A stretch of DNA of 43,283 bases from a virus: IMG/VR virus record IMGVR_UViG_3300042566_000324, positions 1 to 43,283 of that record; one strand, given 5' to 3'. Of this stretch, positions 21,024-38,096 are shown piece after piece. The number at the start of each line of letters is the position of its first letter. The stretch's first letter is position 1. A program made the translations under genes and the position numbers. The notes beneath the pieces are model-generated. The model searched no databases, was not told the DNA's origin, and saw only the letters and a list, made by a program, of their open reading frames with translations.

Positions 21024-22923
21024 AGTTAGACATTAGTTCTATTGATTTAAACCACAACATTTTACTAAACTTTTCATTGTGTAAGGGAGCCATATTTAAA
21101 AATATAATAGAAGTTAACAATTTAACTTTCTTTAAATCAAAATTATTTTTTGTTATCCAGCTTTCTAAATAACTTTTAAATTCTATTAATGAATGTGATA
21201 TTTCAAAACTATAATTAACAGAATATTCACCTCTAAGAAATATTATATTATTTTCATCTTTCATAGAATTATATGGAATTAAACATCCACCATATAATTT
21301 TGCCAAATCGTAATATAAGTCTCCAGATGTAGTTAATCCGGCAAAGGATTCTCTCCAATCTATGTATATAAATTCATCCGTATTAGAATTATATATAACA
21401 TTATCGAATTGTAAATCACCATGAAATAATTTATAAAATGGATTGGTATGAAAATCTTTAAAATTTACTTTTGATAATAATGATTTCATACTATCATATT
21501 CAATACCATTAATATTATGCTTTGAATTGTAATAATCATTTGAATATTTTTTTAAAAATAATTCCAATCTATGATTTGTTTTGTTTATGTAAAAATCATC
21601 AATATAATTTGAATAATCACCATTTTCTTTTATATCAAAATTTGATTTAAATTTTTCTAAAAATTTCTTATATAAATCAATTGAATTAATTTCATATAAA
21701 GTTTTACCATCTTGCCATTCGTATGATATAAAGTTATTAGTATAATTGAAGCCAGACGGTATTTGATTTTTTAATTCTTTTGCTCTAATTATTCTATTGT
21801 TTAGAACTGATTTATTTGGTGTGAATTTTATAAATAAATTATTTTCTTTATATGTTATTTCACCATTGTTTTTTTGTAAAGATAATGGATTGTCTTTTAA
21901 ATATTCTTTTGTTTTGTTCAAATCATCTAAATTGCCGGTATCTAACCATTTTAGTTTTTTAGCTTTAAATGTTGGATATTTTTGTGGATTTTCAAAAGCA
22001 GACACTATTTCACCATCTATAATATTATTTTCCAATTCTTTCCAGAATATATCATAATCCCACATTCCCGCTAAACCAATAAATGCCATATCAAATCCAT
22101 TTACATTTTTATTAGAATATTTTATTATATTATCATTATCTAATAAAACCGTTGAGTATTTTTCAGGATATGATGTTGGTTGTATACCCAACCAATTACC
22201 ATCCAGATATGGTAGTGGTGAATCTATCAAACAATCACAGGTTGTAATATAAAATGGTCTTTGAAGTAAATTTTTACATTTTAGAGCAGAGTATCCTGGA
22301 CCCGAATCTTTACCTTCTATATTGTCTATTTTTACAAATGTAAAATTGTGATTAGGAAATGCTAATTTACAATATTCTTCTACTATATCTCCTTTATAAC
22401 CAATAGCAATAATAAATTGATACTCTTTTGGAAACTTTTCAATTATATGAGAAATTATTGCACGATTATTAATAGGTAAAAGTGCTTTGTTTGTATATTG
22501 TGTAAGCGTTTCTAATCTAGACCCAATACCAGCTGCCAATATTAATACTGCGGGTGTTTGGTGTTCTCCTTCTATTTTTCCATTTGCTCTATGAAACTCA
22601 TCATCAATTCGGATAACATCATCTACCTCTGGTGTAGAAACTTCTTGTAAAATAATATCAGTTAATGCAATAACTCTATGTTTTTTTGGTGGAGTTACAT
22701 TAAAATATTCTCCAGCTTTCATTAATTTTTTTTCAACAACACCATTATCATTTTCTAACCATATTTCAGCTTCACCTGATATTATATAGTTTGTTTCTCT
22801 TTTAAGATTATGATATTGAAAAGATGTTTTATATCCTGCATTTATATAAATCCTTTTGTAACAGTACCTATCATTTAATTCCAACCATTCTTCTTTACCC
22901 CATGGTTTTATAACCGTTTTCAT
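21013..22923 (-). CDS. Cupin / NTP-transferase / APH-type kinase fusion
   Basis: A 636-aa three-domain protein. Residues 1-105: cupin like the type II mannose-6-phosphate isomerase domain (KPWGKEEWLELNDRYCYKR, YHNLKRETNYIISGEAEIWL). Residues 124-345: sugar-NTP transferase of GT-A fold (LILAAGIGSRL at 128-137, NKALLPI with Lys147, TTCDCLID with the metal Asp230). Residues 355-636: APH/choline-kinase-like phosphotransferase (HGDLQFDN at 501-508, YIDWRESF with Asp522). One chain could therefore phosphorylate a small alcohol or sugar and then activate it as an NDP or CDP derivative, as LicA plus LicC do for phosphocholine. The substrate is unknown. It heads the minus-strand precursor genes and overlaps the AroE-like gene by 11 bases. 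Confidence 0.88.
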   Translation of the reverse strand: MKTVIKPWGKEEWLELNDRYCYKRIYINAGYKTSFQYHNLKRETNYIISGEAEIWLENDNGVVEKKLMKAGEYFNVTPPKKHRVIALTDIILQEVSTPEVDDVIRIDDEFHRANGKIEGEHQTPAVLILAAGIGSRLETLTQYTNKALLPINNRAIISHIIEKFPKEYQFIIAIGYKGDIVEEYCKLAFPNHNFTFVKIDNIEGKDSGPGYSALKCKNLLQRPFYITTCDCLIDSPLPYLDGNWLGIQPTSYPEKYSTVLLDNDNIIKYSNKNVNGFDMAFIGLAGMWDYDIFWKELENNIIDGEIVSAFENPQKYPTFKAKKLKWLDTGNLDDLNKTKEYLKDNPLSLQKNNGEITYKENNLFIKFTPNKSVLNNRIIRAKELKNQIPSGFNYTNNFISYEWQDGKTLYEINSIDLYKKFLEKFKSNFDIKENGDYSNYIDDFYINKTNHRLELFLKKYSNDYYNSKHNINGIEYDSMKSLLSKVNFKDFHTNPFYKLFHGDLQFDNVIYNSNTDEFIYIDWRESFAGLTTSGDLYYDLAKLYGGCLIPYNSMKDENNIIFLRGEYSVNYSFEISHSLIEFKSYLESWITKNNFDLKKVKLLTSIIFLNMAPLHNEKFSKMLWFKSIELMSNYDR

Positions 22924-23774: not shown

Positions 23775-24323
23775 ATGAGTTATAATAAATGGGATGAGTT
23801 CATAGAAACTCCATCAAAAAAATTTGGATATCAAGTTCCGTCATTTCAACCATCCGTTTTTAGGGAATATAGAGGTGAAATATTTACGACTTTCCATTCG
23901 GAAGAGCATCCTGCAATGAGGCATGTTCATTATGATAAAAATGAATTATCAATTCATAGTAGATTTTCTCGTTCTTACAAAGGTGTATTGAGAGGATTAC
24001 ATGGTGATAATAAGACATGGAAATTGGTTCAAGCTACCGTTGGAGACATTTATTTAGTTGTATTGGATGCAAGAGAAAGTTCCGATACATATGGAGATTG
24101 GGAAAGTTATATTATAAGTGAAAGATTAAGAAATCAAGTTTTAATTCCACCAGGATTTGTAAATGGACACTATGCATTAACTGATTGTATGTTTCATTAT
24201 ACCCTATTATACAATGGTTCGTATGTCGATTCTCCGGAACATAAAGTAATTAAATGGAATGACCCAGAGTTTCAAATAGAATGGCCTACAAATAATCCAA
24301 TACTTCAATCAAAAGATAAATGA
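23775..24323 (+). CDS. RmlC-like sugar 3,5-epimerase
   Basis: A 182-aa cupin-fold protein of the dTDP-4-dehydrorhamnose 3,5-epimerase family, the same length as RmlC. Visible are GVLRGLHGDN (70-79) with the catalytic His76, KLVQATVGDIYLVVLDAR (83-100) with its Asp98, the DTYGDWESY segment, and IPPGFVNGHYAL (124-135). It should epimerise an NDP-4-keto-6-deoxy sugar, a product of an NDP-sugar 4,6-dehydratase such as the SDR two genes downstream. It opens the plus-strand island and its stop overlaps the next start (ATGA at 24320). The first 30 residues diverge from typical RmlC. Nucleotide specificity cannot be read. Confidence 0.88.
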   Translation: MSYNKWDEFIETPSKKFGYQVPSFQPSVFREYRGEIFTTFHSEEHPAMRHVHYDKNELSIHSRFSRSYKGVLRGLHGDNKTWKLVQATVGDIYLVVLDARESSDTYGDWESYIISERLRNQVLIPPGFVNGHYALTDCMFHYTLLYNGSYVDSPEHKVIKWNDPEFQIEWPTNNPILQSKDK

Positions 24324-24952
24324 TAAATTATTTAAAAAATCATCCAATTGTGAAAGAATCACAATATACAAAAGATGATTTAATAAAATTTGAAAGATTA
24401 ATTGCAGACCATTGGGAATCAGGTAGAATAAAAGGGCCTGTGCATCTTAGTGGTGGGAATGAAGATGAGTTAATTGAAATTGGAAAAAGAATATCCCCAT
24501 CGGATTGGGTTTTTTCAACTTGGCGTTCTCATTATCATGCATTGATTAAAGGTATTGACCCACAATGGTTAGAGAATGAAATATTAGAAGGAAGGTCTAT
24601 TACAATTGTAAATAAAGAACAAAAATTCTATTCAAGTGCAATTGTTGGTTCTATTATTCCTATTGCAGTTGGTGTAGCAATGGCAAATAAAAGAAATGGT
24701 AATGATGATAAAGTATGGTGTTTTGTTGGTGATATGGCGTTTGAAACTGGCGGGTTTTATGAAATGAACAAATATGCAGAACGATATGATTTACCAATTA
24801 CATTTGTAATAGAAGATAATGGAGTATCAACAAATACACCAACGGAAGCAACCTGGAATGGTCAAAAAAGAGACATCCCAAGTAAAACAATATGGTATAA
24901 CTATGAAAAAAAATGGCCGCATTACGGAACAGGAAAATGGGTAGTGTTTTAA
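24320..24952 (+). CDS. E1-alpha-like TPP-dependent enzyme subunit
   Basis: A 210-aa TPP-binding subunit resembling the alpha chain of pyruvate/acetoin dehydrogenase E1, but about 120 residues shorter. Residues 102-125 (FYSSAIVGSIIPIAVGVAMA) are the typical helix before the cofactor loop. The TPP/Mg motif is GDM-x26-DN (FVGDMAFETGG through FVIEDNGVST), a GDG-x26-NN variant. The N-terminal STWRSHYHALIKG segment corresponds to the conserved HPLYLA-type region. Its last 16 bases overlap the SDR gene. With the beta-like subunit at 25949 it could transfer or remove a two-carbon unit on a sugar or keto-acid precursor. No E2 or E3 gene is present, so ordinary dehydrogenase function is unlikely. Confidence 0.8.
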   Translation: MINYLKNHPIVKESQYTKDDLIKFERLIADHWESGRIKGPVHLSGGNEDELIEIGKRISPSDWVFSTWRSHYHALIKGIDPQWLENEILEGRSITIVNKEQKFYSSAIVGSIIPIAVGVAMANKRNGNDDKVWCFVGDMAFETGGFYEMNKYAERYDLPITFVIEDNGVSTNTPTEATWNGQKRDIPSKTIWYNYEKKWPHYGTGKWVVF

Positions 24953-25947
24953 TAACAGGAATAACAGGAATGGTAGGTTCACATTTAACGGATTTTTTAT
25001 TAGAAAATACCGATTGGAAAATATATGGGTTTTGTAGATGGAATGATAATTTGGAAAATATAGAACACCTTTCTTCGGAAATAAATAATGGTAAAAGATT
25101 ATCATTAATATATGGTGATTTAAATGATTTATCTTCATTAATTAATGCCGTAAACATTTCTAAACCAAAATATGTATTTCATTTAGCTGCACAATCTTAT
25201 CCACAAACTAGTTTCATTTCTCCAATAGAAACATTACAAACAAATATAATAGGAACTACAAATTTATTAGAATCACTAAGGTTGTCAAATTGTAAAGATG
25301 CGATAATTCATATATGCGCATCATCGGAGGTTTTTGGTAAAGTTCCAAAAGATAAATTACCAATAGATGAAGAGTGTGGATTTCATCCAGCATCCCCATA
25401 TGCCATATCAAAAGTTGGAACCGATTTAATTGGTAGATACTACGCCGAAGCATATGATATGCGTGTTATGACAACAAGAATGTTTACACATACAGGCCCA
25501 AGACGTGGAGATATATTTCACGAATCCACTTTTGCAAAACAAATTGCAATGATTGAAATGGGATTACAAGAACCAAAAATATATGTTGGAAATTTAGAAT
25601 CACTTAGAACATATGCAGATGTTAGAGATGCAGTTAAAGCATATTATATGTTAGTAACGATTAATCCAATAAAAGGTGAATATTACAATATCGGTGGAGA
25701 ATATACATGTGAGGTTGGTGATACATTAAATTATTTAATAAACAAATCAACAATTAAAAATATAGAAATAGTAACGGATGTCGATAGACTTAGGCCGATT
25801 GATGCCGATTTACAAGTTCCCAACACTACAAAATTTAAAAAACATACTGGATGGGAACCAACAATACCCTTCAATAAAACAATGGATGATTTATTAGAAT
25901 ATTGGAGGGATAAAGTAAAAACAGGTAGAAAATTTTTAAAAAGATAA
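24937..25947 (+). CDS. GDP-mannose 4,6-dehydratase-like SDR
   Basis: A 336-aa extended SDR; I start it at the ATG at 24937 (MGSVLITGITGMVGSH), preceded by AGGAA, rather than an in-frame ATG eight codons upstream that lies inside the previous gene. NAD(P) loop TGITGMVG (7-14), CASSEVFGK with Ser130 and Glu131, and YAISK with Tyr155 and Lys159 give the dehydratase-type catalytic set of GDP-mannose 4,6-dehydratase. Further agreement: THTGPRRGDIFHESTFAKQI and a YNIGGEYT block. It should convert an NDP-hexose to its 4-keto-6-deoxy form, which the RmlC-like protein could epimerise. It sits between the two TPP-enzyme halves. Confidence 0.88.
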   Translation: MGSVLITGITGMVGSHLTDFLLENTDWKIYGFCRWNDNLENIEHLSSEINNGKRLSLIYGDLNDLSSLINAVNISKPKYVFHLAAQSYPQTSFISPIETLQTNIIGTTNLLESLRLSNCKDAIIHICASSEVFGKVPKDKLPIDEECGFHPASPYAISKVGTDLIGRYYAEAYDMRVMTTRMFTHTGPRRGDIFHESTFAKQIAMIEMGLQEPKIYVGNLESLRTYADVRDAVKAYYMLVTINPIKGEYYNIGGEYTCEVGDTLNYLINKSTIKNIEIVTDVDRLRPIDADLQVPNTTKFKKHTGWEPTIPFNKTMDDLLEYWRDKVKTGRKFLKR

Positions 25948-25948
25948 T

Positions 25949-26497
25949 ATGAATAAACCAGAATATACACCATATAAAGATGCATTAACAAATGCGATGT
26001 CAGAAATTGCTAAAATAGAAAATTCAATTTTCATTGGCCAACAGATTTTATTTTCAGGAAATCCAATGAGCACAACATTAGATGGAGTTTCAAAAGATAA
26101 AATGATTGAAGTTCCTGTTATGGAAGAATCTCAAATGGGAATGAGTTTAGGTATGGCTATGACTGGAAACTTTGTTGTTACCTTTTATCCTCGTTGGGAT
26201 TTTTTAATTTGTGCTACAAATCAATTGGTAAACCATATTGATAAAATTGGTTTAATGAGTAATAACAAATGGAAACCAAATATGATTATCCGTGTTGGCA
26301 AGGGTAGTGATAAACCATTAGACCCAGGTCATCAACATAAAGGAAACTATTTTGATGAATTTAAATCAATGTGTCCTAATATTGAATTTCATAATTGTAT
26401 GAGATGGCAAGAAATTGAATTGTCATACAAATATGCTATAAACAATGGAGGTATTAATCTTATTGTTGAATATCCTGAGTTGTATTATTCCAACTAA
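25949..26497 (+). CDS. E1-beta-like TPP-dependent enzyme subunit
   Basis: A 182-aa protein matching the pyrimidine-binding domain of E1 beta chains and transketolases. The sequence VPVMEESQMGMSLGMAMTGN (about 52-71) holds the catalytic Glu that protonates TPP, and DFLICATNQLVNH with IRVGKGSDK and DPGHQHKGN follows as in E1-beta. The usual C-terminal transketolase_C domain is absent (E1-beta is about 325 aa). It starts directly after the SDR stop and is the likely partner of the alpha-like subunit at 24320. Its 3' end overlaps the convergent minus-strand gene by 38 bases. Confidence 0.8.
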   Translation: MNKPEYTPYKDALTNAMSEIAKIENSIFIGQQILFSGNPMSTTLDGVSKDKMIEVPVMEESQMGMSLGMAMTGNFVVTFYPRWDFLICATNQLVNHIDKIGLMSNNKWKPNMIIRVGKGSDKPLDPGHQHKGNYFDEFKSMCPNIEFHNCMRWQEIELSYKYAINNGGINLIVEYPELYYSN

Positions 26498-26891
26498 CTT
26501 CCCATACTTGCATATCAGCTGCTAGACAATCTATTTTATAATCCTTTCTACCACCGGATACTTCTTGTATTTTGTTTTTAGCTGTGTTTCTAATACCATT
26601 CAGTCCATGAGTAAGTTCCAAACTATTACCATCTTTGATTCCTTTACGAACATTTGATTCGTTGTGCCAGATATGTAAATTCATTTGCGATAATACTACA
26701 ATTGCTCTTATTGTTTCGGCAGTAACAACACCTTTATTTTCATCTAAACACATTTGAATATCATGCACAATATCTTGGATTTCTTTTGCATATTCGGATT
26801 TGTGTTCTGGAATAAATACTTCTTTTAACTGTACAATGGATAATCTATCTACCAATTCACTTAAAGTTGGTAAGTATTTTCTGTGTTTCAT
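26460..26891 (-). CDS. Conserved phage protein of unknown function
   Basis: A 143-aa protein that I recognise as a recurrent, unnamed protein of environmental T4-like phages: RKYLPTLSELVDRLSIVQLK at the start, HIWHNESNVRKG in the middle, LTHGLNGIRNTAKNKIQEVS and GGRKDYKIDCLAADMQVWEV near the end. It is helical and has no metal or nucleotide motif. The ATG overlaps the stop of the SGNH gene upstream (ATGA). It is the last gene of the long minus-strand glycan block and ends inside the convergent E1-beta gene. Function unknown. Confidence 0.75.
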   Translation of the reverse strand: MKHRKYLPTLSELVDRLSIVQLKEVFIPEHKSEYAKEIQDIVHDIQMCLDENKGVVTAETIRAIVVLSQMNLHIWHNESNVRKGIKDGNSLELTHGLNGIRNTAKNKIQEVSGGRKDYKIDCLAADMQVWEVSWNNTTQDIQQ

Positions 26892-27670
26892 ATTTTATTT
26901 TTTATAAATTTTAAAAATTCTTGTGAAAAATTATAGTGCCAATTTTTTCCAGGATGTTCACCATCTCTGGCCAATTTATCATTTTTATAACAATTTTTTG
27001 GTTCAAAAAATCCATGATAATTTATAGTATAATTTAATTCGGGTTGTAATTCTTTAAATACATCATAATAATATCCTGCAACCGTATGAAATATTTTTAT
27101 ATTATACAATTTTGCAATAGTTTCTACAAATTTATAGGATTCCCAAAATATCATTAAGTCTTGATAATCATTTCTCAATTCTAAAAATAATAAATCTTCG
27201 GTTTCATTTTTCCAAACTATATCTTTACTATGTGCAGTTCTAAATCCACCCACTTTTTTAAAAGAACCATCATCTTTCATATAATCTCTTCTACTAAATC
27301 CAGGCCACATTATTAATACTAAATTTGGAGTAAATTGTGATGATACAAATTTATAAAATGTTTTTGCAACAAAAGAAGTTGATACACCATACATTGAGTA
27401 GTTAAATGTTTTTCCAAATTCATTACCAATTAACATTGGCCACGTTTCATCCACATTAAGACCGATTCCCATAGTCCAAGAACAACCCAATGTTAATATG
27501 TTAAAATCTGACTTTTCTTTTATTGAATTAGAACGATACCCATGTTCATTCATATCATATACAATGGTTCCATCGTCAATCAAATCGGTTGCTAATGTTG
27601 ATAGTTTTTTATTTTTATATTTTTCTAATACAAAAATATTATCGGATAGTATGTTTTCTATATTTCCCAC
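26888..27670 (-). CDS. SGNH-hydrolase-like protein (copy 1)
   Basis: A 260-aa SGNH/GDSL-type protein. Block I is LTLGCSWTMGIG with nucleophile Ser64; the C-terminal block V is ARDGEHPGKNWH with Asp236 and His239. The long middle is aromatic-rich. The start is a GTG at 27670, preceded by AAAGGAAAG and lying inside the last codons of the GT10-like gene. SGNH enzymes are esterases or O-acyltransferases, often acting on acetylated glycans. It is one of four such proteins in this block and the most distant in position, separated from the others by the GT10-like gene. Catalysis is likely but the substrate unknown. Confidence 0.72.
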   Translation of the reverse strand: MGNIENILSDNIFVLEKYKNKKLSTLATDLIDDGTIVYDMNEHGYRSNSIKEKSDFNILTLGCSWTMGIGLNVDETWPMLIGNEFGKTFNYSMYGVSTSFVAKTFYKFVSSQFTPNLVLIMWPGFSRRDYMKDDGSFKKVGGFRTAHSKDIVWKNETEDLLFLELRNDYQDLMIFWESYKFVETIAKLYNIKIFHTVAGYYYDVFKELQPELNYTINYHGFFEPKNCYKNDKLARDGEHPGKNWHYNFSQEFLKFIKNKI

Positions 27671-29097
27671 TTTATCTGCTTTCCTTTACAAAAATCGGCC
27701 AGTTCACCAATTAATTCTTCTCCAAATATTTTTACATTATTGTAATTTTTTAATGTTCTATGATTATGTAAAAGTATATCTTCCATTTGCCAATACCAGT
27801 TATGTATTTCTTCCTTTGACATTGCCGATAATCTTACAATTTCATTATATATTTTATTCATTCTTATTTTTTGGTCAGGTTCATTATCATAACTTTCATC
27901 AATAAATCCTTCAAAAGTTTTAAATCCTAAACTTTTTAAAAGTTCTAATGCTCCCGGAAATGCTACAAATAAAAATGGTTGAAAATTTATTATTGGTTTA
28001 AATACTTTTTCAGTTAATGATTTATGTTCACCATCAATGAATGTTTCAAAACAAACTTCAAAATATGAATTTATATATTGTTCAAAATTTAAATCAGTCC
28101 ATGCATTAATATCATCTACATTTTGATTATTTTCACTTTTTAATTTATGTGGTTGTGTATCATATAATTCTTTTATTTTATCTAAATCTAATGTTTCGAA
28201 AGCAAATTCTTCTTCGATTTGTTTAATTCTATCAGGTTGATATACACTTTGTAAAGCATAAAAAGACCAATCGGCTTTTGATAATACATCATTTGTGGAT
28301 ACCAATTTATATAATAGTGCAAGTCTATGTGGTCTATTATTTCTCATTTTCATTAAAAAATGATTATCTCTAATTTTTGACTTTGAATCAAAAAAGTTTT
28401 GTTCATTCATACACATCGTATCACCCTGATTTATATATGTGTTAAAAAACCAAGAACTATGGTCTAAACAAAATGGTAAATTTACTATTTTTAATTTTCG
28501 TTGCTCTAATGGAAACCAACTTTCATATAATTCTTTTGCATTAAAACTATTAATACAAATTATAACAGAATCATTTGGTAATCCACTATATTCAATTGAT
28601 TTATGAATATCTAAATAGGTATTAAAATCAATATATGGTTCCATAGAGTAATCTATTAATATTTTTACTCTATTTTGAAATATATACTTTATTGTTTGTT
28701 TTGAGATATATTTCCAAAAATATTCTCCTATTAAATTTTTACCATTTACTGGACTTATTCCAAAAAAGTTATTTAATGAAGGACTAGGTTTTATTGGGTA
28801 TATAAATGCTTCCGTACTTCTTTTTGCAAAATATATTGCTTCTTCGTTTGGATTTAGAATTGTATTGTATACCGACGCATGATAAAAAAATCCAGTACAA
28901 GATATAGGCCAATGTCCATATTCATCTTCAAACATATCTTTTAATGATATACCTGTTTCAAATATAGTTGCTCCTGTTTTTTTTGTGGAATACAATGATG
29001 ATAAATAATTCATTACTCCTATTTCAGGCATAGTTGCGTTTGGTAATACAAATGATGAAAACACATTATCAAATACAAAATTTACTTTATGTTTCAT
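27658..29097 (-). CDS. GT10-like glycosyltransferase candidate
   Basis: A 479-aa protein starting at the ATG at 29097, which overlaps the upstream stop (ATGA); a TTG at 29103 is less likely. The C-terminal third (CFETFIDGEHKSLTEKVFKP, then INFQPFLFVAFPGALELLKS and GFKTFEGFIDESYD) has the donor-site pattern of GT-B enzymes of the alpha-1,3-fucosyltransferase (GT10) type: a FE...TEK core followed by a proline-containing strand and GFKTF. The N-terminal part shows no clear motif. It probably transfers a deoxyhexose or similar sugar, which would fit the 4-keto-6-deoxy pathway on the plus strand. Family assignment is from motif memory only. Confidence 0.55.
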   Translation of the reverse strand: MKHKVNFVFDNVFSSFVLPNATMPEIGVMNYLSSLYSTKKTGATIFETGISLKDMFEDEYGHWPISCTGFFYHASVYNTILNPNEEAIYFAKRSTEAFIYPIKPSPSLNNFFGISPVNGKNLIGEYFWKYISKQTIKYIFQNRVKILIDYSMEPYIDFNTYLDIHKSIEYSGLPNDSVIICINSFNAKELYESWFPLEQRKLKIVNLPFCLDHSSWFFNTYINQGDTMCMNEQNFFDSKSKIRDNHFLMKMRNNRPHRLALLYKLVSTNDVLSKADWSFYALQSVYQPDRIKQIEEEFAFETLDLDKIKELYDTQPHKLKSENNQNVDDINAWTDLNFEQYINSYFEVCFETFIDGEHKSLTEKVFKPIINFQPFLFVAFPGALELLKSLGFKTFEGFIDESYDNEPDQKIRMNKIYNEIVRLSAMSKEEIHNWYWQMEDILLHNHRTLKNYNNVKIFGEELIGELADFCKGKQIKWEI

Positions 29098-29885
29098 ATC
29101 CAATTATTTTTTTTAAGTTTATTTAAAACATCATTATACACTTTTATATGACCTTCTTTAGAAGTATGTAATGTATTTAAATCATCAGGAAAATCAATAG
29201 CTAATTTGTGCCAATCTACATTTACCAAATATTGTTTATCAATATAATTTGCAAATTCAATATCCCAGGTTAATATACAATGTTTTATATTATTCTTTTT
29301 AAGAAGCATGTGTGCCATATTTATTATACCTATATCAAATTGTCTTTGTATTTTTTCATCAAAAATTTCTGCATAAAAATCTCTAAGAACTTTCATTTTT
29401 TCGTCTGGTTCTTTTCTAAATTTTGCAAAGTAATTTCCTGTTTTATGGCGTGTATTCATTATATTGTCGACATAATCTACTACACCAAAATAATTTTCGG
29501 TAAACATTTTTCCAACATAATTCGGGTCATTTTGTAGTGGATTTTCCAAAAGATATTGATATGTATCTTTGCCAAATGGTGGATATTGATGATAGTTTAC
29601 ATCTGTTAATTTTATATCAGGATTGGCCAATTGTGTATCATATGGAAACCAATCTACTCTATTATAACTTGTGACACTTAGACATAATAAATCTATATCT
29701 TTTACATTTTCTAATGCATATTTCACCTGTAATAATATGGAAAAATTCGTACTAGACCCTTTTGCAAAATTAATTAATTCTTTGTTTAATTTTTCAGCAA
29801 GTAATGAACCATATGGTTCTTTTTTTAAATCATGTACACCAATTCCGATATTAAAGGAATCTCCACAAATAACTAATTTTCCCAT
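29094..29885 (-). CDS. SGNH-hydrolase-like protein (copy 2)
   Basis: A 263-aa SGNH-type protein. Block I is VICGDSFNIGIG with Ser10 at the very N-terminus. The region around residues 30-50 (LINFAKGSSTN) resembles block II/III with Gly and Asn. The C-terminus HTSKEGHIKVYNDVL has two His (240 and 246) in place of a full DxxH. It lacks a signal peptide, so it acts in the cytoplasm. Its stop overlaps the GT10-like start (ATGA) and its start abuts copy 3. Likely an acyl esterase or transferase on a glycan; substrate unknown. Confidence 0.72.
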   Translation of the reverse strand: MGKLVICGDSFNIGIGVHDLKKEPYGSLLAEKLNKELINFAKGSSTNFSILLQVKYALENVKDIDLLCLSVTSYNRVDWFPYDTQLANPDIKLTDVNYHQYPPFGKDTYQYLLENPLQNDPNYVGKMFTENYFGVVDYVDNIMNTRHKTGNYFAKFRKEPDEKMKVLRDFYAEIFDEKIQRQFDIGIINMAHMLLKKNNIKHCILTWDIEFANYIDKQYLVNVDWHKLAIDFPDDLNTLHTSKEGHIKVYNDVLNKLKKNNWI

Positions 29886-30754
29886 TATAATAAATTATGT
29901 TGTTTAATATATCTTGTTAATTCTTCTGCCCACAATTTATGAGATGAAGGTGATGGATGCCATCCATTATATATAGTTTCATTATTATTTTGTTCCATAA
30001 AACTTTTAAAGGTATTATTGTTTTCATCTTTTTTATAAAACTTTATTTTATCAACAGTATCCCACAATGAAACATATTCATAATTGTGAACATCTCTTCT
30101 ATTTTTTTTTGTAGAATAATATGGTGTTCCGTTTAGTTGTAATTTTTTTAATTCCTCTTTGATATTTAAATCATTCCACTCCCATGGTTGTTTTCCAGGA
30201 GTTTGATAAAATGAGTTAAAACACATCCATTTTATTTTATTTTTCTCACAAAAATTTTGTAGTTGTATAACATTCATAACATATCTTGGTAAATATTCTT
30301 CCGGATTCCACAAATATGTCACATATAAATCCCAAAAATCTTTTTGTGCAGGTGCATCAAAATGTTGAACTTGTGGCCATAATCTAAATCTAGAACTAAA
30401 TTTTTCATCTTTATACCAAAATGAATTTCGTTCAGGAGATGACCATCCAACTATTACAAATAAATCATCGGTAGGTAATCCTTTTGCCAAATAATTTGTT
30501 GAAATATATGTAATAATTCTGTTTAATATTGTCCCATTGTCATCTGCTGGCCAAGATAAATTAATAACATCTGCATTTAAAAAATTTGAAAGATGTGTTG
30601 GGAATATTTTTGGTATTCTATACGCATCATTCTCTTCTGTCCAATCATATTTTCCAGGATGTGTTGCATTATCATATCGTTTACTTATCTCAGGGTCAGC
30701 TATTTCTGAACCAAATACCCAACTATCTCCGTCACATATTATTTTTTTACTCAT
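29885..30754 (-). CDS. SGNH-hydrolase-like protein (copy 3)
   Basis: A 289-aa SGNH-type protein. Block I is ICDGDSWVFGSE with Ser11, block II/III is INLSWPADDNGTILNR with Gly/Asn, and the end block is NGWHPSPSSHKLWAEEL with His266 and His272. I recall similar phage proteins under the name DUF6071, from memory only. The middle is Trp- and Tyr-rich, as in carbohydrate-binding sites. It shares single-base overlaps with copies 2 and 4, so copies 2-4 form one translational unit. Confidence 0.75.
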   Translation of the reverse strand: MSKKIICDGDSWVFGSEIADPEISKRYDNATHPGKYDWTEENDAYRIPKIFPTHLSNFLNADVINLSWPADDNGTILNRIITYISTNYLAKGLPTDDLFVIVGWSSPERNSFWYKDEKFSSRFRLWPQVQHFDAPAQKDFWDLYVTYLWNPEEYLPRYVMNVIQLQNFCEKNKIKWMCFNSFYQTPGKQPWEWNDLNIKEELKKLQLNGTPYYSTKKNRRDVHNYEYVSLWDTVDKIKFYKKDENNNTFKSFMEQNNNETIYNGWHPSPSSHKLWAEELTRYIKQHNLL

Positions 30755-31410
30755 TATATTATTTTTTTATCCAACATTGGATTATTAATCATATCAATCA
30801 TTTTTTTTGCAAAGATTTTATGTCCTTCGAAAGACCAATGCGTATCGTGTATTTTTCCATTTGTTGCATTATGAATAGTTTGGAATTTATTATCATAATC
30901 CAATACATTCCATATTATACACTTTTTAACACCTTTTGATAAAAATAATTTTTTAAAAAAATTAAATCTATCATCAAATCTTTTTCTTATTATATCACAA
31001 TCCATATAAGTTAATGTATTCATTATATGTTCACTTTCTATACTATTGTATCCTGCACTTTTAAACATATCTTCTGGTACAGGTGTTACGGTAACTGGAT
31101 TATTTAAGTAATCCATTTCTTTGTTTGTTAGTCTATTTTCTATATCGAATCTATGACTAAATGTTTTTTGTATTATTACATAATCACCAGAATTAACTTC
31201 GTCAAATGTTCTAATCATAGAATCTATTATTTTATCATTTGAATTTCTACCAAGTGAATAGTTTTTTAATTCTAAATCAAATTCTTCAGCAACAATTTTA
31301 GTCCAAATTTTATCTGATTTTGATTTTTTATATTTCTTATAATATGGTTCATAAGAAAAACAACCATTACCATTTGTAAAAGAACAACCATATGTAAACA
31401 ATCTATTCAT
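30754..31410 (-). CDS. SGNH-hydrolase-like protein (copy 4)
   Basis: A 218-aa, shortest member of the quartet. Block I is FTYGCSFTNGNG with Ser10, then NYSLGRNSNDKIID with the Gly/Asn pattern of blocks II/III, and the final block DTHWSFEGHKIFAKKM with His191 and His197. It resembles copy 1 in using G-C-S instead of G-D-S. It starts one base after the glycosyltransferase-like gene upstream and overlaps copy 3 by one base. Role as for the other copies; not demonstrated. Confidence 0.72.
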   Translation of the reverse strand: MNRLFTYGCSFTNGNGCFSYEPYYKKYKKSKSDKIWTKIVAEEFDLELKNYSLGRNSNDKIIDSMIRTFDEVNSGDYVIIQKTFSHRFDIENRLTNKEMDYLNNPVTVTPVPEDMFKSAGYNSIESEHIMNTLTYMDCDIIRKRFDDRFNFFKKLFLSKGVKKCIIWNVLDYDNKFQTIHNATNGKIHDTHWSFEGHKIFAKKMIDMINNPMLDKKII

Positions 31411-31411
31411 A

Positions 31412-32278
31412 TTAGTTTATGTGTTTCCAATTAAAATATAATTCTTGAACTTTTCTCCAATCATTTATACTATGCAAATTTTCTTTTTCTGCAACATTTC
31501 TATATAAATAATTATAGTTATCCTTTAATGATGTAACTAATATACCATATGAAGTGGCATATTTGTATAATAATGTTCCTGGTCCATAATAATATTCACC
31601 ATCTTCTATGTATTTTCCGGCCATCATTAAATCATAATTTCTCAATTTAATTTCTTTAAACCATCTGTATAAATTAGCTACTACATCCATAGTAGGTGAA
31701 TCCGCATAGAAAAAACAATCATCCATATTATTGTAATTATATTCCATAGGGAATTTTTTAATACTTGCCAATGATGATGCATATAGTGTTAATGGTGAAC
31801 AAAAATGTGCTTTAAATTTATTCGTTATTAGTGAATTAGAATTTGGTAATATACTTTCTGGTGGGAAATTTACATCAAATCTAGTTTTAATAACCATATC
31901 GTAAACAATATCATTTTCTATTTCATATTGTCTTTTTAAATAGATACTTTTCATAAAACTATAAAAAAGTGATGTCCATGCTTCTATAAATTTCGTTTCA
32001 TCAAAGTTTTCATATATCATACCTTTTGGTGAAAATGCAGCCTTTATTTCATCTGCCTCATTTGGATTTTCTATTTTATAATTTTTACTTTCCCAATGTG
32101 GTGTCAAACTATCTCTATATGTATTTGTATCCCAAGTATGTATAAAATAATCAATTTCAATTTTTGTATTTCTTTCTGGAAATATTTTTGTATTAAAGTA
32201 TTGTAAAATGTTTTCCTTTGCATTTTTCCAAGTTCTAGGTTGTCCACTAATACAAACAGCGATTCTAAATGGTCTCAT
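31412..32278 (-). CDS. Glycosyltransferase-like protein, tandem paralogue A
   Basis: A 288-aa protein beginning FRIAVCISGQPRTWKNAKEN, with IDYFIHTWDTN (42-52), a LKRQYEIENDIVYDMVIKTR block followed by FDVNF, and DDCFFYADSPTMD. The order of a Rossmann-like first strand, HTWD, and an R-x-D near residue 130 resembles a group of phage and capsule proteins annotated as putative glycosyltransferases. The next gene is a clear paralogue. The R-x-D could be the metal/nucleotide-sugar site. No membrane segment. It lies three bases from its paralogue and two from the SGNH gene. Confidence 0.6.
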   Translation of the reverse strand: MRPFRIAVCISGQPRTWKNAKENILQYFNTKIFPERNTKIEIDYFIHTWDTNTYRDSLTPHWESKNYKIENPNEADEIKAAFSPKGMIYENFDETKFIEAWTSLFYSFMKSIYLKRQYEIENDIVYDMVIKTRFDVNFPPESILPNSNSLITNKFKAHFCSPLTLYASSLASIKKFPMEYNYNNMDDCFFYADSPTMDVVANLYRWFKEIKLRNYDLMMAGKYIEDGEYYYGPGTLLYKYATSYGILVTSLKDNYNYLYRNVAEKENLHSINDWRKVQELYFNWKHIN

Positions 32279-32281
32279 AAT

Positions 32282-33088
32282 TTATCGTTTTACTATTGGG
32301 TCTATTTTTACTTTAACATTTTTTATATCAAACATTCTTATATAATATGCCATTATAATTTCCAAAGAAACTGTATTGGGAAATAAATCTAAATCAAATT
32401 TTGGTATCCAATTATATAATGAAGTCAAATTATCGTAAGTTATTGAATCTGAATAGAAAAATATATCTCCTATAATATCAAATGGAAAATATGAAACATT
32501 TTTACTATGAACAGAATATATTGTTTTTTTCTTTATTGGTTCAAAGTCTTGTGCAAACATAATTCTACTAAATTCTTCAAAATCAATATCAGGTCTAAGA
32601 CGCATACACATATCATATTCAAAATTATTTTCAATTTCATATTGTCTTTTTAAATTGCCGGCCATCATAATACCATATAATTGACTACCTGCCCAAGTTA
32701 CAGGTGGCCATTTAGTATCACCCGTTCTAAACCAAGAACATTCATCTAACCAATGTTTTCTAGATAAACTTTTTTCTTGATTTTCAATCAAATATTTTTT
32801 TGGATTTAAATGATTTAAAAATTCTTGTATTTCTTTTTCGTCAATAGTTTCTCCAGGAGGAGGGATGTATATGTCTATATTATTTTCATTATTCGATTTG
32901 ATATACTGATTACTCCATTCAAAAAATGGTTGGCTATTAAAATCCCAAGTATGAACAAAATAGTCAACTTCTAATTTTTCATTAATACAGTTATCCGCAT
33001 ATTGTAATTCTTTAAATAACTTTTTCCAAGAACCAATACATTGTTTCCAAGTTCTAATTTGTCCACTAACACATACTGCTATTTTCAT
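32282..33088 (-). CDS. Glycosyltransferase-like protein, tandem paralogue B
   Basis: A 268-aa paralogue of the 31412-32278 product: MKIAVCVSGQIRTWKQ aligns with its start, VDYFVHTWDFNSQ with its HTWD block, LKRQYEIENNFEYDMCMRLR then PDIDFE with its R-x-D region, and GDIFFYSDSITYD with its DDCFFYADSP segment. The C-terminus is shorter. It lies between the paralogue and the LamG-like gene. Divergence is high outside the motifs, so the duplication is old or the two were acquired separately. Predicted to add a different sugar. Confidence 0.6.
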   Translation of the reverse strand: MKIAVCVSGQIRTWKQCIGSWKKLFKELQYADNCINEKLEVDYFVHTWDFNSQPFFEWSNQYIKSNNENNIDIYIPPPGETIDEKEIQEFLNHLNPKKYLIENQEKSLSRKHWLDECSWFRTGDTKWPPVTWAGSQLYGIMMAGNLKRQYEIENNFEYDMCMRLRPDIDFEEFSRIMFAQDFEPIKKKTIYSVHSKNVSYFPFDIIGDIFFYSDSITYDNLTSLYNWIPKFDLDLFPNTVSLEIIMAYYIRMFDIKNVKVKIDPIVKR

Positions 33089-33094
33089 AAAAAA

Positions 33095-33853
33095 TTAATA
33101 ATTTAAATTATTTTTATTTGTAAATAATTGTAAATAGTTTCCATTAAATGCATAATTCCAAAATTTATAACGATTTCTGTCTTTAAAATCATAGAAAAAA
33201 TAAAAATCTTTTGTCAATTCCCAATCTCTTTTAAATATTTCAAAATCATCAAAAATAACTTCTAAATAATTAGTTTTATAATTTTCTATAATATCATATA
33301 TGGTATCGGTATTGAGATTTTTTCTTATACAAAATGTTAAATCATATTCAAATTTACCAATAGGGTGATTATCAGGATTAACCATATTAGATGCACCAAA
33401 CCAATATTGCGACTCATCGTAGTCTGCCAGAGTAAACCCATCATAATCCATTACACCGACTAATTCTTTATTATAATAACAATTAATTTTTGAATTTATA
33501 CTATCGTTTACAATGTAGATATCATTAAAATTATTCAAATCATCTTCCTCAATTTTATGCTGTATTTGTTTTACTTGTATTTCTGCATTTCTATTATTTT
33601 TTTCCCAAAACCAATATGTAAACTGTATATAATAATTGTAATGATATTTATCCGTTAATATTGATATTCCCGAATGTGCACCATTTCTACTTATTATAAA
33701 TGAGTCCATTTCTTGCAATTCACTTTCATCTACTTTAACTCTTACAAATAAAGTAAAATCTTTTATCATAAAATCATATCCATTTATTTCTTTAAAATCA
33801 CGATTTTTAGGATGCATGAAATATATGTTATTTTTATCTATTTTTAAACTCAT
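33095..33853 (-). CDS. Stand-alone LamG/concanavalin-like domain protein
   Basis: A 252-aa beta-rich protein without a signal peptide. The pattern FMIKDFTLFVRVKVDE ... FIISRNGAHSGISI ... INCYYNKELVGVMDYDG ... YWFGASN is that of a concanavalin A-like/LamG jelly roll: a first strand, a ligand-side loop, the short hairpin with N-x-E/K, and the closing W/Y-FG strand. The two GT7-like proteins upstream carry an inserted domain of the same type. It overlaps the radical SAM gene by four bases. It probably binds the glycan or positions it for the neighbouring transferases; no catalytic residues are seen. Confidence 0.55.
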   Translation of the reverse strand: MSLKIDKNNIYFMHPKNRDFKEINGYDFMIKDFTLFVRVKVDESELQEMDSFIISRNGAHSGISILTDKYHYNYYIQFTYWFWEKNNRNAEIQVKQIQHKIEEDDLNNFNDIYIVNDSINSKINCYYNKELVGVMDYDGFTLADYDESQYWFGASNMVNPDNHPIGKFEYDLTFCIRKNLNTDTIYDIIENYKTNYLEVIFDDFEIFKRDWELTKDFYFFYDFKDRNRYKFWNYAFNGNYLQLFTNKNNLNY

Positions 33854-35256
33854 AGTTGAATTGTTTTACAAAAGTTATAAAATTCTTCTAATTCTGGAAA
33901 TGTTTTTACAAAATTAGTTCCTCTTCTTTTATCATGTTCTGAAAAATATTTATAGAAATCATATCTATTTTTCATTTGTTCTTCAGGATTTTGTTTTGCT
34001 TGCATCCAATCGTAAATTCTTTTTACTTTTTGAACTTCAACTTCATGGTAACCAACATACATTGGGTCATTTGAAGGAGCTGCGTAATACGATATTAACT
34101 TAGATTGGTCTAATACATATTTTGAAAAATCAGATGGTAATACTTGCACAGTTTGATGTTTTGGATACCTTAAATATGATGTGTCTAAAAATGTATATGC
34201 ATTGTGATATCTATCCGGACTTGCAAAGGTTTCTTTTAGTTTATAAACTTCTTTAATTAATTTATCATATTTGAATACCGATAATGCATTATATGTAGAC
34301 ATAAATGTTAATACAACTCTAGGACATTGTGTAAGTATTTTATTCACATTATCCCAAAATTTATTAAATTCCAAACCTGTTCTAATATATTCCGCATGGT
34401 TTCCCCAAGTATCTACTGATGTAAATATTACGATTTCTTTGACTCTTCCTTCATCCTCTATTCTTTTTATTTTTTGTATTAATTTATCTATAAGAGCATC
34501 CGGAGAACCTAAATTTGAATTTATGCCTAATTTCAATTCTCTATTTGGATTTGGTTCATTGATAATATAATCTAATACATCCCAAGTATCTTTTGATAAT
34601 AAAGGTTCACCACCTGTAATTCTAAATGTATTTAAATCTCTATATAATTCAGGCCACCATTTCCAAAATGCTTCAGTATATGGGTTATGTTCAGAATGTT
34701 TAAGTGGAACTTTATTTTCTCTTTCCATCCAAGTCATATCATTGAAACCAGTAGATGTTGGGTATCCACCAAATTTTTCAATCTCTTCCACCCATTTTGA
34801 ACTAAATGATGGGCCACAATAAGAACATTTAAAATTACAAGTATTACTAAATGCAACTTCAACATAACGAGGATTATAATCATCTCTAAAATCGGAATTA
34901 ATAATTTCTTCCATATGTGGAAATGACCAACTGTCTGCCGATTTAAATACTCTATCGGAAAATTGTTCCGAATTATCTTCTACACCCCAACAATATTCAC
35001 ATTCGGATGGTCGTTCTCCTTCTAACATTTCCTTTCTACGCATTTTTTTATATCTCGTATTATGCAATGCAGATGGGTTTCTAGCAATCTCTGCCTGTGA
35101 AATTTTATGTGTTTGGGGATGGTGACAACTATGATTGTGGCCGGACTGAAGTTGTAGTGTAACTTGTGTCCATTTGGCTAGACACATACCAGGTCCAACA
35201 TCATCGAGTTGTCTTTTTACATTTGTATAAAACGGATTTTGTAATGCTTTTGTCAT
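33850..35256 (-). CDS. Twitch-domain radical SAM enzyme
   Basis: A 468-aa radical SAM protein. The 4Fe-4S site is NTCNFKCSYCGPS (Cys140, Cys144, Cys147) and the SAM loop is RITGGEPLL (213-220). Before the barrel, residues 20-95 hold Cys25, a SGHNHSCHHPQTHKI block and SECEYCWGVED, the N-terminal twitch-type auxiliary cluster region known from phage radical SAM proteins (I recall an NCBI family of this name). These enzymes do radical chemistry on small molecules or peptides; which one here is unknown. Placement between LamG-like and GT7-like genes suggests modification of a sugar or of the glycosylated protein. Four-base overlap downstream. Confidence 0.88.
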   Translation of the reverse strand: MTKALQNPFYTNVKRQLDDVGPGMCLAKWTQVTLQLQSGHNHSCHHPQTHKISQAEIARNPSALHNTRYKKMRRKEMLEGERPSECEYCWGVEDNSEQFSDRVFKSADSWSFPHMEEIINSDFRDDYNPRYVEVAFSNTCNFKCSYCGPSFSSKWVEEIEKFGGYPTSTGFNDMTWMERENKVPLKHSEHNPYTEAFWKWWPELYRDLNTFRITGGEPLLSKDTWDVLDYIINEPNPNRELKLGINSNLGSPDALIDKLIQKIKRIEDEGRVKEIVIFTSVDTWGNHAEYIRTGLEFNKFWDNVNKILTQCPRVVLTFMSTYNALSVFKYDKLIKEVYKLKETFASPDRYHNAYTFLDTSYLRYPKHQTVQVLPSDFSKYVLDQSKLISYYAAPSNDPMYVGYHEVEVQKVKRIYDWMQAKQNPEEQMKNRYDFYKYFSEHDKRRGTNFVKTFPELEEFYNFCKTIQL

Positions 35257-35259
35257 ATT

Positions 35260-36666
35260 TTATAATTTTACATTTATCATAACAGATTTGTCCGTTATAT
35301 TTTCTATACTTATTAATTCGTATTTTATATTATTTATTCCATCGGTTTTATAGTCTATTTTACCCTGTTGCATTTGTAAAATATATCTTTTTTCATTTTT
35401 TGCAGTTGTTTCACCTTTTGCCCATTTATCAACACCACCGACACTAATCAATCCTTCCGTTTGATGTGGTAAACATTTAAATTTACCATCTCTTCTGTAT
35501 GGTAATACCGTATGTGGTATTTCTATTTTTTCTTTTGTTAATTTAACATTATGTGAATTACCAAATTCTAAATTCATAGTAAAAATATCCAATATTAAAT
35601 TATCTTCAGGAGTTTTTTTATGTAAATTTTTAATTTCATTTGAAGTTAAACATCTATTCCACATTTTAATATCGGCAATTGCTCCTTTAAAAAAAGATTC
35701 AACAGGTGATTTTGAATAACCAATATAAAATGGTTCACTTCCATATCTCTTAAGTGGTTCATCATATATTAAAGGAGATTGTGTACCCGTTCCCAATCTT
35801 GCGTCACTTTCTTTACCATTTAAATAGAAATGTATTTTTTTATTTTCAGAATCGACTGACATTGTAATCCAACTCCATTGATTTTCATATCTTTTAATCC
35901 ATTGATACAAATGTGTTTTCATTCTATCCCAAAGTTGCATTGTGTATGCTCTACTATTATTAAAAGATAAACCCCAATCATAGCCAGGTTTTCTGAAAAT
36001 AGGGTATTCTACAAATCTTCTATCTTCATCACCGATTAACCAAATAGGAACTTTTTCTATTTGTTGTTCTGCTTTTACTAAAATAGAAATAGTGTGTGAA
36101 TTTGAAATACAATCTTTTTGTTCTTTTGATGCTGGCAATTCTATCTTTGAATTTATTCCATTAAAATTTGCTACATATTTTTCCTCAGTATAATTTAATT
36201 TTGTTTTATCGGCGTATCCTTCCATTACACATCTCCAAAATAGGTCATCATCTTCCATACCCCAATCCCAATAACCATTTGAATAACCATTCGTTCTCTC
36301 TACTTGCTCTTTTGAAAATACAACTGCACCTCCAAAGTATTCTTCATACTTTAATTGGTAATCAGATTGTGAAATACGAACTGCAATATGTTGTGGGTTA
36401 TCGGTTGGAAATGAATAATCGCAACTATCATCTTCTGGAACCATATCTATATCGTGCCATACAATGTAATCACATCCATCTTCAAATGCATGTTTAGCAG
36501 CAATATTTTTCATTGCTCCTCGATTAAAAAGTTTATCGTCGCATTGGTGGCCAAAATAAATGGTATACTCAATTCCTCTTTCTTCTAAGAATTTTGATAT
36601 ATGAGGAATAAACACTTTCATATGTTCTTCTCTATTTCTATATGGTACACATACACCCAATTTCAT
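35260..36666 (-). CDS. GT7 galactosyltransferase-like, split by a LamG insert (A)
   Basis: A 468-aa protein. Residues 1-150 are the N-terminal part of a beta-1,4-galactosyltransferase (GT7): VCVPYRNREEHMKVF, HDIDMVPED with the metal Asp72-x-Asp74, FGGAVVFSKEQ, and NGYWDWGMEDDDLFWR (W-G-x-E-D-D). Residues about 160-365 are a LamG/concanavalin-like insert (HTISILVKAEQ, KKIHFYLNGKESD, PFYIGYSKSP, IADIKMWNRCLTSNEI). Residues 385-468 return to GT7: LPYRRDGKF, then YKTDGINNIKYELISIEN, matching the DGLNSLxY end of animal GT7 enzymes. It should transfer a UDP-hexose to a glycan acceptor, with the insert perhaps binding substrate. Confidence 0.85.
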   Translation of the reverse strand: MKLGVCVPYRNREEHMKVFIPHISKFLEERGIEYTIYFGHQCDDKLFNRGAMKNIAAKHAFEDGCDYIVWHDIDMVPEDDSCDYSFPTDNPQHIAVRISQSDYQLKYEEYFGGAVVFSKEQVERTNGYSNGYWDWGMEDDDLFWRCVMEGYADKTKLNYTEEKYVANFNGINSKIELPASKEQKDCISNSHTISILVKAEQQIEKVPIWLIGDEDRRFVEYPIFRKPGYDWGLSFNNSRAYTMQLWDRMKTHLYQWIKRYENQWSWITMSVDSENKKIHFYLNGKESDARLGTGTQSPLIYDEPLKRYGSEPFYIGYSKSPVESFFKGAIADIKMWNRCLTSNEIKNLHKKTPEDNLILDIFTMNLEFGNSHNVKLTKEKIEIPHTVLPYRRDGKFKCLPHQTEGLISVGGVDKWAKGETTAKNEKRYILQMQQGKIDYKTDGINNIKYELISIENITDKSVMINVKL

Positions 36667-36668
36667 AT

Positions 36669-38096
36669 TTATATTCCAACCGTTATGTGAGTTTGATTAC
36701 CTACTTTAGTTTTATTATGTTCTACATATTCTAACGTATTTAATCCATCCGTTTTGTAATTAAATTTATTATTTTCAACTTCATTATGAAATTTTATTTG
36801 ATTGTATCTTGTTGTTATATTTTTCCAAGAACCATTTGAGTATCCATTTTCATCGTGGTTTAATAATTCAAATAAACATTCTCTTCTATATGGTATTTTT
36901 AATGTTTTATCATCTTCTATACTATACTCTACTAAATTAGAATTATTTACAATACCATTATTATTACCAAAAGATAAATCTATCAATTCATTATTTTTTA
37001 TAATTCTACAATCATAATATAATTTTAAATTATCAGCTGATTTATAATTTTTAAAGTTGGATGTTAATCCAAAAAACTTATTGTTTGATATTTCTAAAAT
37101 TTCAAATCGTGATAATATTTTATCATAGTATGCAAACGAACTAATTGAACCTTTAAAATTATTTTTTAATTCATTTTCTATATGGCCGGATTGTCCTAAA
37201 TAAAAATATGGTGCAGATGCATAGTCATATAAATTACCATTAAAATATGTATTATTTACAAATTCTCCATCTTGATACATTGTTATCAATTTTTTGGTTG
37301 GGTCAATTGTAACACATATTGTCGTTTTATAATTTGATTTTATGTCAGAATTTATATAACTTATTTCTTTTAGTTCATTGTATAATTCAAAATTATATCT
37401 ATTGTATGAATTATACGATATTCTTAAATCAAATCCAGGTATTGAAAATATAGAATAAGTATCATCATACTTATTTATATCACAAAGTATCTTATCAGGA
37501 AAAAATGAAATAAAAAATGTTATTTCTTTTTTAAAATTAAATTCATTTTTACCCCTTACATATGAATCATTGTTATTAAAGTAAAGTGCTGCAGTACCAC
37601 TAACCGATGATTTTATAGTTTTTTCATCCAAAGCAACACGTGTCGTTTTACATCTAAATAACAAATCATTATCTTCATATCCCCATCCCCAATATTCATT
37701 ACTATATCCATTTATTCTTTCAAATGCAGCAATGGGAAACATAGTAACACCGCCAAAATATTCATCAAATATTATTTTAGATGTTTCATTATTTTTAGAA
37801 AAAAATTTAGTTGCCAAATGAATTGGTGTATCTGCGTATGAATAATCCACTTCATGTGGTAGCATATCAATATCATGAAATACCACATAATCACATTTCA
37901 TTTTTTTAGCCAATACAAACCCTATATTTAATAATTTACCTCTATTAAAACTTTTAGCATCATCTTGTTCAACTACTATTAATTCAAATGGAATACTCCT
38001 TTGTTTTAAATAATTTATTATAGAATGTTTAAATGCATATAGATGTTCATATCTATTTCTAAATGGAACAATTACTCCTAATTTTTTATTTTCCAT
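36669..38096 (-). CDS. GT7 galactosyltransferase-like, split by a LamG insert (B)
   Basis: A 475-aa paralogue of the gene downstream with the same split design. N-terminal GT7 part: VIVPFRNRYEHLYAFK, FHDIDMLPHEVDYSY (Asp75-x-Asp77), EYFGGVTMFPIAAFERINGY, WGWGYEDNDLLFR. LamG-like insert about 155-385: FFISFFPDKI, TICVTIDPTKKLITMYQDGE, APYFYLGQSGH, SISSFAYYDKILSRFEI. C-terminal GT7 part about 395-475: IPYRRECLFELLNH and NYKTDGLNTLEYVEHNKTKV then THITV, the canonical DGLNxLxY...TxITV end. The ATG overlaps the 64-aa gene by 11 bases. Confidence 0.87.
   Translation of the reverse strand: MENKKLGVIVPFRNRYEHLYAFKHSIINYLKQRSIPFELIVVEQDDAKSFNRGKLLNIGFVLAKKMKCDYVVFHDIDMLPHEVDYSYADTPIHLATKFFSKNNETSKIIFDEYFGGVTMFPIAAFERINGYSNEYWGWGYEDNDLLFRCKTTRVALDEKTIKSSVSGTAALYFNNNDSYVRGKNEFNFKKEITFFISFFPDKILCDINKYDDTYSIFSIPGFDLRISYNSYNRYNFELYNELKEISYINSDIKSNYKTTICVTIDPTKKLITMYQDGEFVNNTYFNGNLYDYASAPYFYLGQSGHIENELKNNFKGSISSFAYYDKILSRFEILEISNNKFFGLTSNFKNYKSADNLKLYYDCRIIKNNELIDLSFGNNNGIVNNSNLVEYSIEDDKTLKIPYRRECLFELLNHDENGYSNGSWKNITTRYNQIKFHNEVENNKFNYKTDGLNTLEYVEHNKTKVGNQTHITVGI

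Follow-up and report, generated by a model that had tools for sequence, protein, structure and literature searches.

Variable arrays of SGNH-type genes accompany putative glycosyltransferase modules in aquatic phages

The locus and its genes

The stretch of DNA analysed here, called the window, is a virus record taken at its whole length of 43,283 bases. It contains T4-like head genes, coding for a major head protein, a head protease, a portal and a large terminase, and its source is an uncultured T4-like phage. Among phage isolates, the terminases closest to its own come from Flavobacterium phage immuto (52%) and from Microcystis phage Mel-JY01 (50%). The head genes are adjoined by a large cluster of sugar genes, with four divergent genes of the SGNH type, designated A to D. 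The features considered below are the following, in order of position:

14596-18942, minus strand: 1,448-aa protein with a nucleotidyltransferase domain at its N-terminus
19454-20407, minus strand: conserved protein, part of the sugar-activation set
20400-21023, minus strand: shikimate-dehydrogenase-like protein of the same set
21013-22923, minus strand: cupin/nucleotidyltransferase/kinase, sugar activation
23775-26497, plus strand: island on the opposite strand with an RmlC-like epimerase, an NDP-sugar dehydratase and two ORFs (24320-24952 and 25949-26497) that are the parts of a split thiamine enzyme
26888..27670, minus strand: gene A, 260 aa, GCSW...DGEHPG; Ser64, Gly95, Arg127 and canonical Asp236-x-x-His239
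27658..29103, minus strand: putative glycosyltransferase, 481 aa, between A and B ("GT10-like", a label given by eye only)
29094..29885, minus strand: gene B, 263 aa, CGDSF...LHTSKEGH; Ser10, Gly43, Arg76, Asp234, His240
29885..30754, minus strand: gene C, 289 aa, GDSW...GWHPSPSSH; Ser11, Asn73, Arg109, Trp265-His266; Pfam DUF6071
30754..31410, minus strand: gene D, 218 aa, GCSF...DTHWSFEGH; Ser10, Gly54, Asn58, Arg87, Asp189-x-His191
31412..32278, minus strand: GTa, putative glycosyltransferase, one of a paralogous pair (phrog_13607, 3.8e-10), co-occurring with C and B
32282..33088, minus strand: GTb, putative glycosyltransferase, second of the pair (phrog_13607, 5.8e-11)
33095..33853, minus strand: LamG-like protein (by eye), conserved between rSAM and GTb
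33850..35256, minus strand: twitch-domain radical SAM protein, rSAM (NCBIfam NF033640, 355 bits against a cut-off of 170; synteny)
35260-36666 and 36669-38096, minus strand: two glycosyltransferase family 7 (GT7) genes, each fused to a LamG lectin domain (Pfam)
40900-43281, minus strand: fibre-like ORF, 793 aa, running off the end of the window

The initial annotation had described A to D as a quartet sharing a G-[CD]-S block near the N-terminus and a His block near the C-terminus, and all four open reading frames are present on the minus strand with both blocks in place. D, C and B are indeed contiguous, the D/C and C/B junctions each sharing one base (TAATG), and A lies, as had been described, beyond the 481-aa GT10-like frame. 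The count of two GCS genes (A and D) and two GDS genes (B and C) is likewise correct.

The proposed GT10-like identity of the 481-aa protein found no support in Pfam or PDB sequence searches. The transferase labels of this gene and of the GTa/GTb pair are based on context and weak similarity; GTb has a distant relative in cyanophage S-SM2, annotated as a capsular polysaccharide biosynthesis protein. The LamG-like label was given because the protein looks similar to the LamG portion of the GT7 fusions beside it, while giving no Pfam match of its own. Gene content of the opposite-strand island suggests a branched or deoxy sugar. The fibre-like ORF at the window end has 22% Ser+Thr, rising to 48% in residues 1-60, contains SGSVSGTITTL repeats and has 4 bases in common with the next sugar gene; it is a possible acceptor of the glycan.

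Fold and homology of the four proteins

When single sequences of A to D were searched against Pfam, PHROGs and NCBIfam, only C gave a significant match, exceeding the cut-off of Pfam family DUF6071 (PF19547) with 49.6 bits against 27 (5.2e-13). A, B and D gave no match to this family. Alignments of 14 to 25 sequences each were assembled for the four proteins from relatives in IMG/VR, and AlphaFold models computed from these alignments are confident for B (pLDDT 90) and C (pLDDT 86). In structural alignment the best Z score is 17.2 for B, obtained with TesA, and 14.8 for C. Among the matches listed for both models, SGNH/GDSL esterases and lipases (TesA, carbohydrate esterases, aryl esterases) prevail overwhelmingly; the first Foldseek ranks are held by TesA for B and by CE2 acetyl-xylan esterases for C. 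On the evidence of these models, the predicted SGNH fold of B and C can be regarded as secure.

Profile comparison extends the relationship to A, D and three further families (E, F and G) present in related phages. It gave 96.5% for A-D, 98.3% for B-D, 98.9% for D-F, 97.0% for D-E, 97.3% for D-G and 98.8% for C-G, with 0.6% and 0.1% for two unrelated controls, and the profile alignments span the whole length for A-D, B-D and C-G. Some direct comparisons, such as those of A with C and of B with A, were not significant, so that the four families are linked through intermediates. A also has a weak PDB match to the GDSL lipase 1vjg (E 0.036), and the D orthologue of locus L012 matches Pfam Lipase_GDSL over its whole length, below the curated cut-off (E 0.0016). 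Profiles of B, C and D, searched against PDB sequences, found nothing significant.

In the closest orthologue pairs, dN/dS amounts to 0.04-0.23 for A, B, C and E and to 0.13-0.35 for D, distant pairs having been excluded for near-saturation of their synonymous sites; the genes are therefore under purifying selection. Whole-length profile matches, the null controls and these low ratios together argue that relatedness of A to D is not due to chance. The alpha/beta SGNH core that the initial annotation had expected in all four proteins is thus found in the models of B and C and is indicated by profile for A and D, whose SGNH fold is well supported by sequence comparison.

Active-site residues in seven families

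Residues of the active site were counted in 172 sequences belonging to the seven families A to G. Serine of block I is never substituted, its single gap falling in a truncated sequence, and histidine of block V is likewise never substituted, with gaps in two sequences; neither member of the Ser/His pair, central to the original proposal, has been lost in relatives. No family has a conserved asparagine at the classical block III position (GxND). Just after the block III strand there is an invariant arginine (172/172; Arg127 in A, Arg76 in B, Arg109 in C and Arg87 in D), and profile alignments place these arginines in register or within one residue of each other.

The block II loop contains an asparagine that is nearly invariant in families B to G. 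Glycine of block II is retained in A (22/23), B (41/43), E, F and most of G and varies in D (16/24), its position in C being occupied by alanine in 37/39 sequences. Aspartate three residues before the histidine (DxxH) occurs in A only; D, E and F have DxH, and B, C and G have no aspartate there. B possesses aspartates at -6 and -5 from the histidine, of which Asp234 is invariant, and in C the histidine is directly preceded by tryptophan, with no aspartate. A division into two classes by the two variants of block I fails, and GCS and GDS were rejected as functional classes: D orthologues carry either variant, those in L012, L018 and L025 having GDS.

Absence of the block III asparagine excludes the classical S-G-N-H subtype and not the fold superfamily, since accepted members of the latter (SASA, AlgX and PatB1) also lack this residue according to the superfamily review PMC9487903. 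Further altered but active SGNH sites are described there: a Ser-His dyad with a block V tryptophan in CE2, DxH together with tyrosine in place of the asparagine in AlgX, and an oxyanion arginine coming from block II in PatB1; a search of the review by term found no block III arginine (PMC9487903). As three of the four genes in the window lack the canonical DxxH aspartate and all four lack the block III asparagine, hydrolase or acyltransferase activity should not be simply assumed.

Cellular location and distribution

The signal peptide that had been reported missing is indeed absent. In B, C and D the catalytic serine stands at position 10 or 11, and strand 1 begins at residue 3-4 in the models of B and C; with the serine block or strand 1 inside the first ~10 residues, these three proteins have no room for a signal peptide. 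A begins with an extension of 57 residues, which is polar. The four proteins are soluble.

No gene of the sugar cluster codes for a clear membrane segment. The sole clear case among the window genes listed is the N-terminal segment of a small protein outside the cluster (13227-13874), and the products of 14596-18942 and 24320-24952 have one internal stretch each whose hydropathy is 1.8-1.9. The genes recognised in the window include no flippase, polymerase or membrane glycosyltransferase; the window is a fragment, and an exporter could lie outside it. The lack of clear membrane segments in the cluster makes it probable that the glycan is both built and attached in the cytosol, the recipient being a virion protein or some other soluble molecule. 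The well-studied SGNH acyltransferases of surface glycans work outside the cytoplasm or together with a membrane partner.

A tblastn search with A to D and members of E, F and G found no match in about 50,000 phage records, and hence no isolate with known host. In a collection of bacterial genomes nothing was confirmed for C and D by a scan with two short peptide patterns each, which does not prove absence. The cyanophage marker psbA is missing from 12 related virus records.

The array and its transferase module in related phages

Related phages have up to six SGNH genes per locus, and gene order in close relatives is rSAM, LamG-like, GTb, GTa, D, C, B, E, GT10-like, A. In a count over 13 contigs, all of them distinct and untruncated, 13/13 contain A, B and C, 12/13 contain D and 10/13 contain E, which is absent from the window. 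In distant phages D, E, the GT10-like gene and A are usually missing, and F and G may be inserted between C and B. One locus (L066) contains five SGNH-type ORFs in a row, as recognised by HMM and motif. In two others a single SGNH gene is split into two ORFs (gene C in L024 and gene A in L027), by decay or assembly error.

In the conserved module the rSAM gene lies upstream of GTb and GTa; it is far more widespread than the SGNH genes. A survey anchored on its product, and so not on the SGNH genes, yielded at least 596 confirmed loci. Of 58 usable non-duplicate loci analysed among the rSAM matches listed, 16 contain both C and B, 2 just one of them and 40 neither. SGNH-like ORFs that belong to none of the families A to G are also present in the survey. 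Where the GTa/GTb pair is present, both C and B accompany it in 16/18 of these listed loci, against 0/40 without the pair (Fisher 2e-12, a value that, like other p-values from these data, overstates the evidence because the 58 contigs are not phylogenetically independent). Linkage between the two couples is clear and nearly all-or-none. The conserved protein, the shikimate-dehydrogenase-like gene and the cupin/nucleotidyltransferase/kinase gene also accompany C and B in relatives; the last of them is found in 13/16 listed loci with C and B versus 1/42 others.

Among the 58 listed loci, none with the GT10-like family downstream of rSAM contains C and B. By synteny, the GT10-like family adjoins A and E in relatives: E directly follows it in several loci and A recurs beside it. 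On this pattern, the window looks like two modules merged together. The initial annotation had suggested a search for conserved co-occurrence of the four genes. Co-occurrence is indeed conserved, but C and B are the sole near-obligate couple; D occurs often, A and E turn up repeatedly next to the GT10-like gene, and the quartet as such is not a fixed unit. It belongs to a variable array that many aquatic phages possess; seven or more related families contribute to it, several of which go with a particular putative glycosyltransferase module. The core of this array is the pair C and B, which travels in near-strict fashion with the putative glycosyltransferase pair.

In viral contigs, the rSAM protein (NF033640; 33850-35256 in the window, loci L068-L147) is a common anchor of interchangeable sugar modules. 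Downstream of the module with C and B, one locus (L030:10875-12347) codes for a carbamoyltransferase-family protein (Pfam Carbam_trans_C, 2e-53), possibly another decoration gene.

Proposed function

The most likely role of A to D is probably that of cytosolic O-acyl transferases or esterases acting on a phage-made glycan. Taking all evidence together, the best explanation, to which we give an even chance, is that they are soluble cytosolic Ser-His SGNH proteins moving acyl groups on a phage-made sugar, in sets of one or more members that differ with the transferase module. We infer catalysis, acyl chemistry, direction of transfer and acceptor from fold, conserved residues and gene context, and the mechanism would be as follows. 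In each of the soluble, single-domain proteins an acyl-enzyme would form through the Ser-His pair, and the acyl group, most simply acetyl from CoA, would be moved onto or off the sugar made by the partner transferases. C and B would probably have one product as their common target, possibly in a complex with each other. The invariant arginine after strand 3 would take the place of the block III asparagine, either by contributing to the oxyanion hole or by binding an anionic substrate or donor. As no clear membrane segment is present in the cluster, the finished glycan would more likely be placed on a virion protein, for instance the neighbouring Ser/Thr-rich fibre, than exported to the host surface. 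The several distinct acyl decorations suggested from the sequence at the outset may exist, which would fit with the several divergent paralogues. A precedent is OctT, likewise of the SGNH type, which uses acyl-CoA to acylate a soluble sugar (PMC4555173). Glycosylation of virions and of DNA by phages is known from work cited in PMC12619734.

Alternatively, A to D might be hydrolytic de-acylases, that is editing or salvage esterases stripping acyl groups from host-derived or phage-made sugars. The hydrolases TesA and carbohydrate esterases have the nearest folds, and the Foldseek list of C is headed by CE2 acetyl-xylan esterases. Fold alone, however, does not separate transferase from hydrolase (PMC9487903). 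Tight linkage to glycosyltransferase-like and sugar-activation modules suits biosynthesis better than degradation, and so do the absence of an export signal and the presence of several divergent copies per locus. We consider de-acylation unlikely, though with a chance that deserves attention.

Some members, especially C and B, could instead be non-catalytic, sugar-binding or scaffold subunits holding the glycosyltransferases together. In favour of this are the loss of the block III asparagine in all families, of the aspartate three residues before the histidine in B and C, and of the block II glycine in C, where alanine replaces it. Pure binding would, however, not need a serine and a histidine that are never substituted among 172 sequences, and activity is known from SGNH enzymes whose sites are altered to a comparable degree (PMC9487903), which makes this alternative improbable.

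Equally doubtful, with a similarly small chance, is modification of the host surface polysaccharide (O-antigen or capsule) against superinfection, the SGNH proteins acylating that polysaccharide. Pelagimyophages possess glycosyltransferase-rich host-recognition cassettes with radical SAM genes, and the glycosyltransferases of these cassettes have been read in this way (PMC7029224). The cluster described here has no evident integral membrane glycosyltransferase, flippase or polymerase, and its SGNH proteins would differ in location from the well-studied acyltransferases of surface glycans, which are extracytoplasmic or membrane-partnered (PMC9487903). Hypermodification of phage DNA, with SGNH proteins finishing a base-linked sugar, is very improbable: there are known cases of DNA decorated by phage glycosyltransferases (from work cited in PMC12619734), but no nucleotide-modifying gene was recognised among the annotated genes of the window, itself a fragment, and the cluster adjoins a fibre-like gene.

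Acyl transfer or removal on a phage-made sugar thus remains our preferred reading. A module-specific acyl-handling set with one strict couple would offer a concrete handle on the many sugar genes of large aquatic phages.

Comparison with known systems

Stand-alone phage SGNH proteins are already present in databases. The uncultured Caudovirales proteins with an "SGNH_hydrolase domain" in BFVD are of the same stand-alone kind, share mostly 13-21% identity with C and are mostly unannotated; we found no operon role described for them in the literature consulted, and no description of the array, of the near-strict pair of C and B with its module or of the invariant arginine. Pfam DUF6071 (PF19547), whose cut-off is exceeded by C and family G and not by A, B or D, is an entry without assigned function.

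With the SGNH/GDSL superfamily at large (TesA, Pfam Lipase_GDSL), A to D share the predicted fold, the serine after strand 1 and the histidine before the last helix. They differ from it in lacking the block III asparagine, in the invariant arginine after that strand and in an aspartate whose position varies or which is absent, and their single-sequence Pfam matches are weak or missing. OctT, the diglucosylglycerate octanoyltransferase, in contrast keeps all four SGNH residues and a Ser-His-Asp triad (PMC4555173), and D reaches only 13.2 bits with the OctT model NCBIfam NF043016, far from the cut-off of 250.

C resembles the CE2 enzymes CtCE2 and Est2A in the tryptophan of the block V loop, and a functional catalytic aspartate is absent from CE2 dyad enzymes as well. 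CE2 nevertheless keeps the block III asparagine and has an extra N-terminal domain, whereas C is one domain of 289 aa, apparently cytosolic. AlgX and AlgJ share with D, E and F the DxH of block V, and with all families the absence of the block III asparagine (PMC9487903). AlgX is however circularly permuted (H-S-G-N) and uses tyrosine, whereas all seven families have the order Ser...Arg...His. With serine, arginine and histidine invariant, the block III asparagine absent and the aspartate optional, these families would represent an unusual solution of the SGNH active site.
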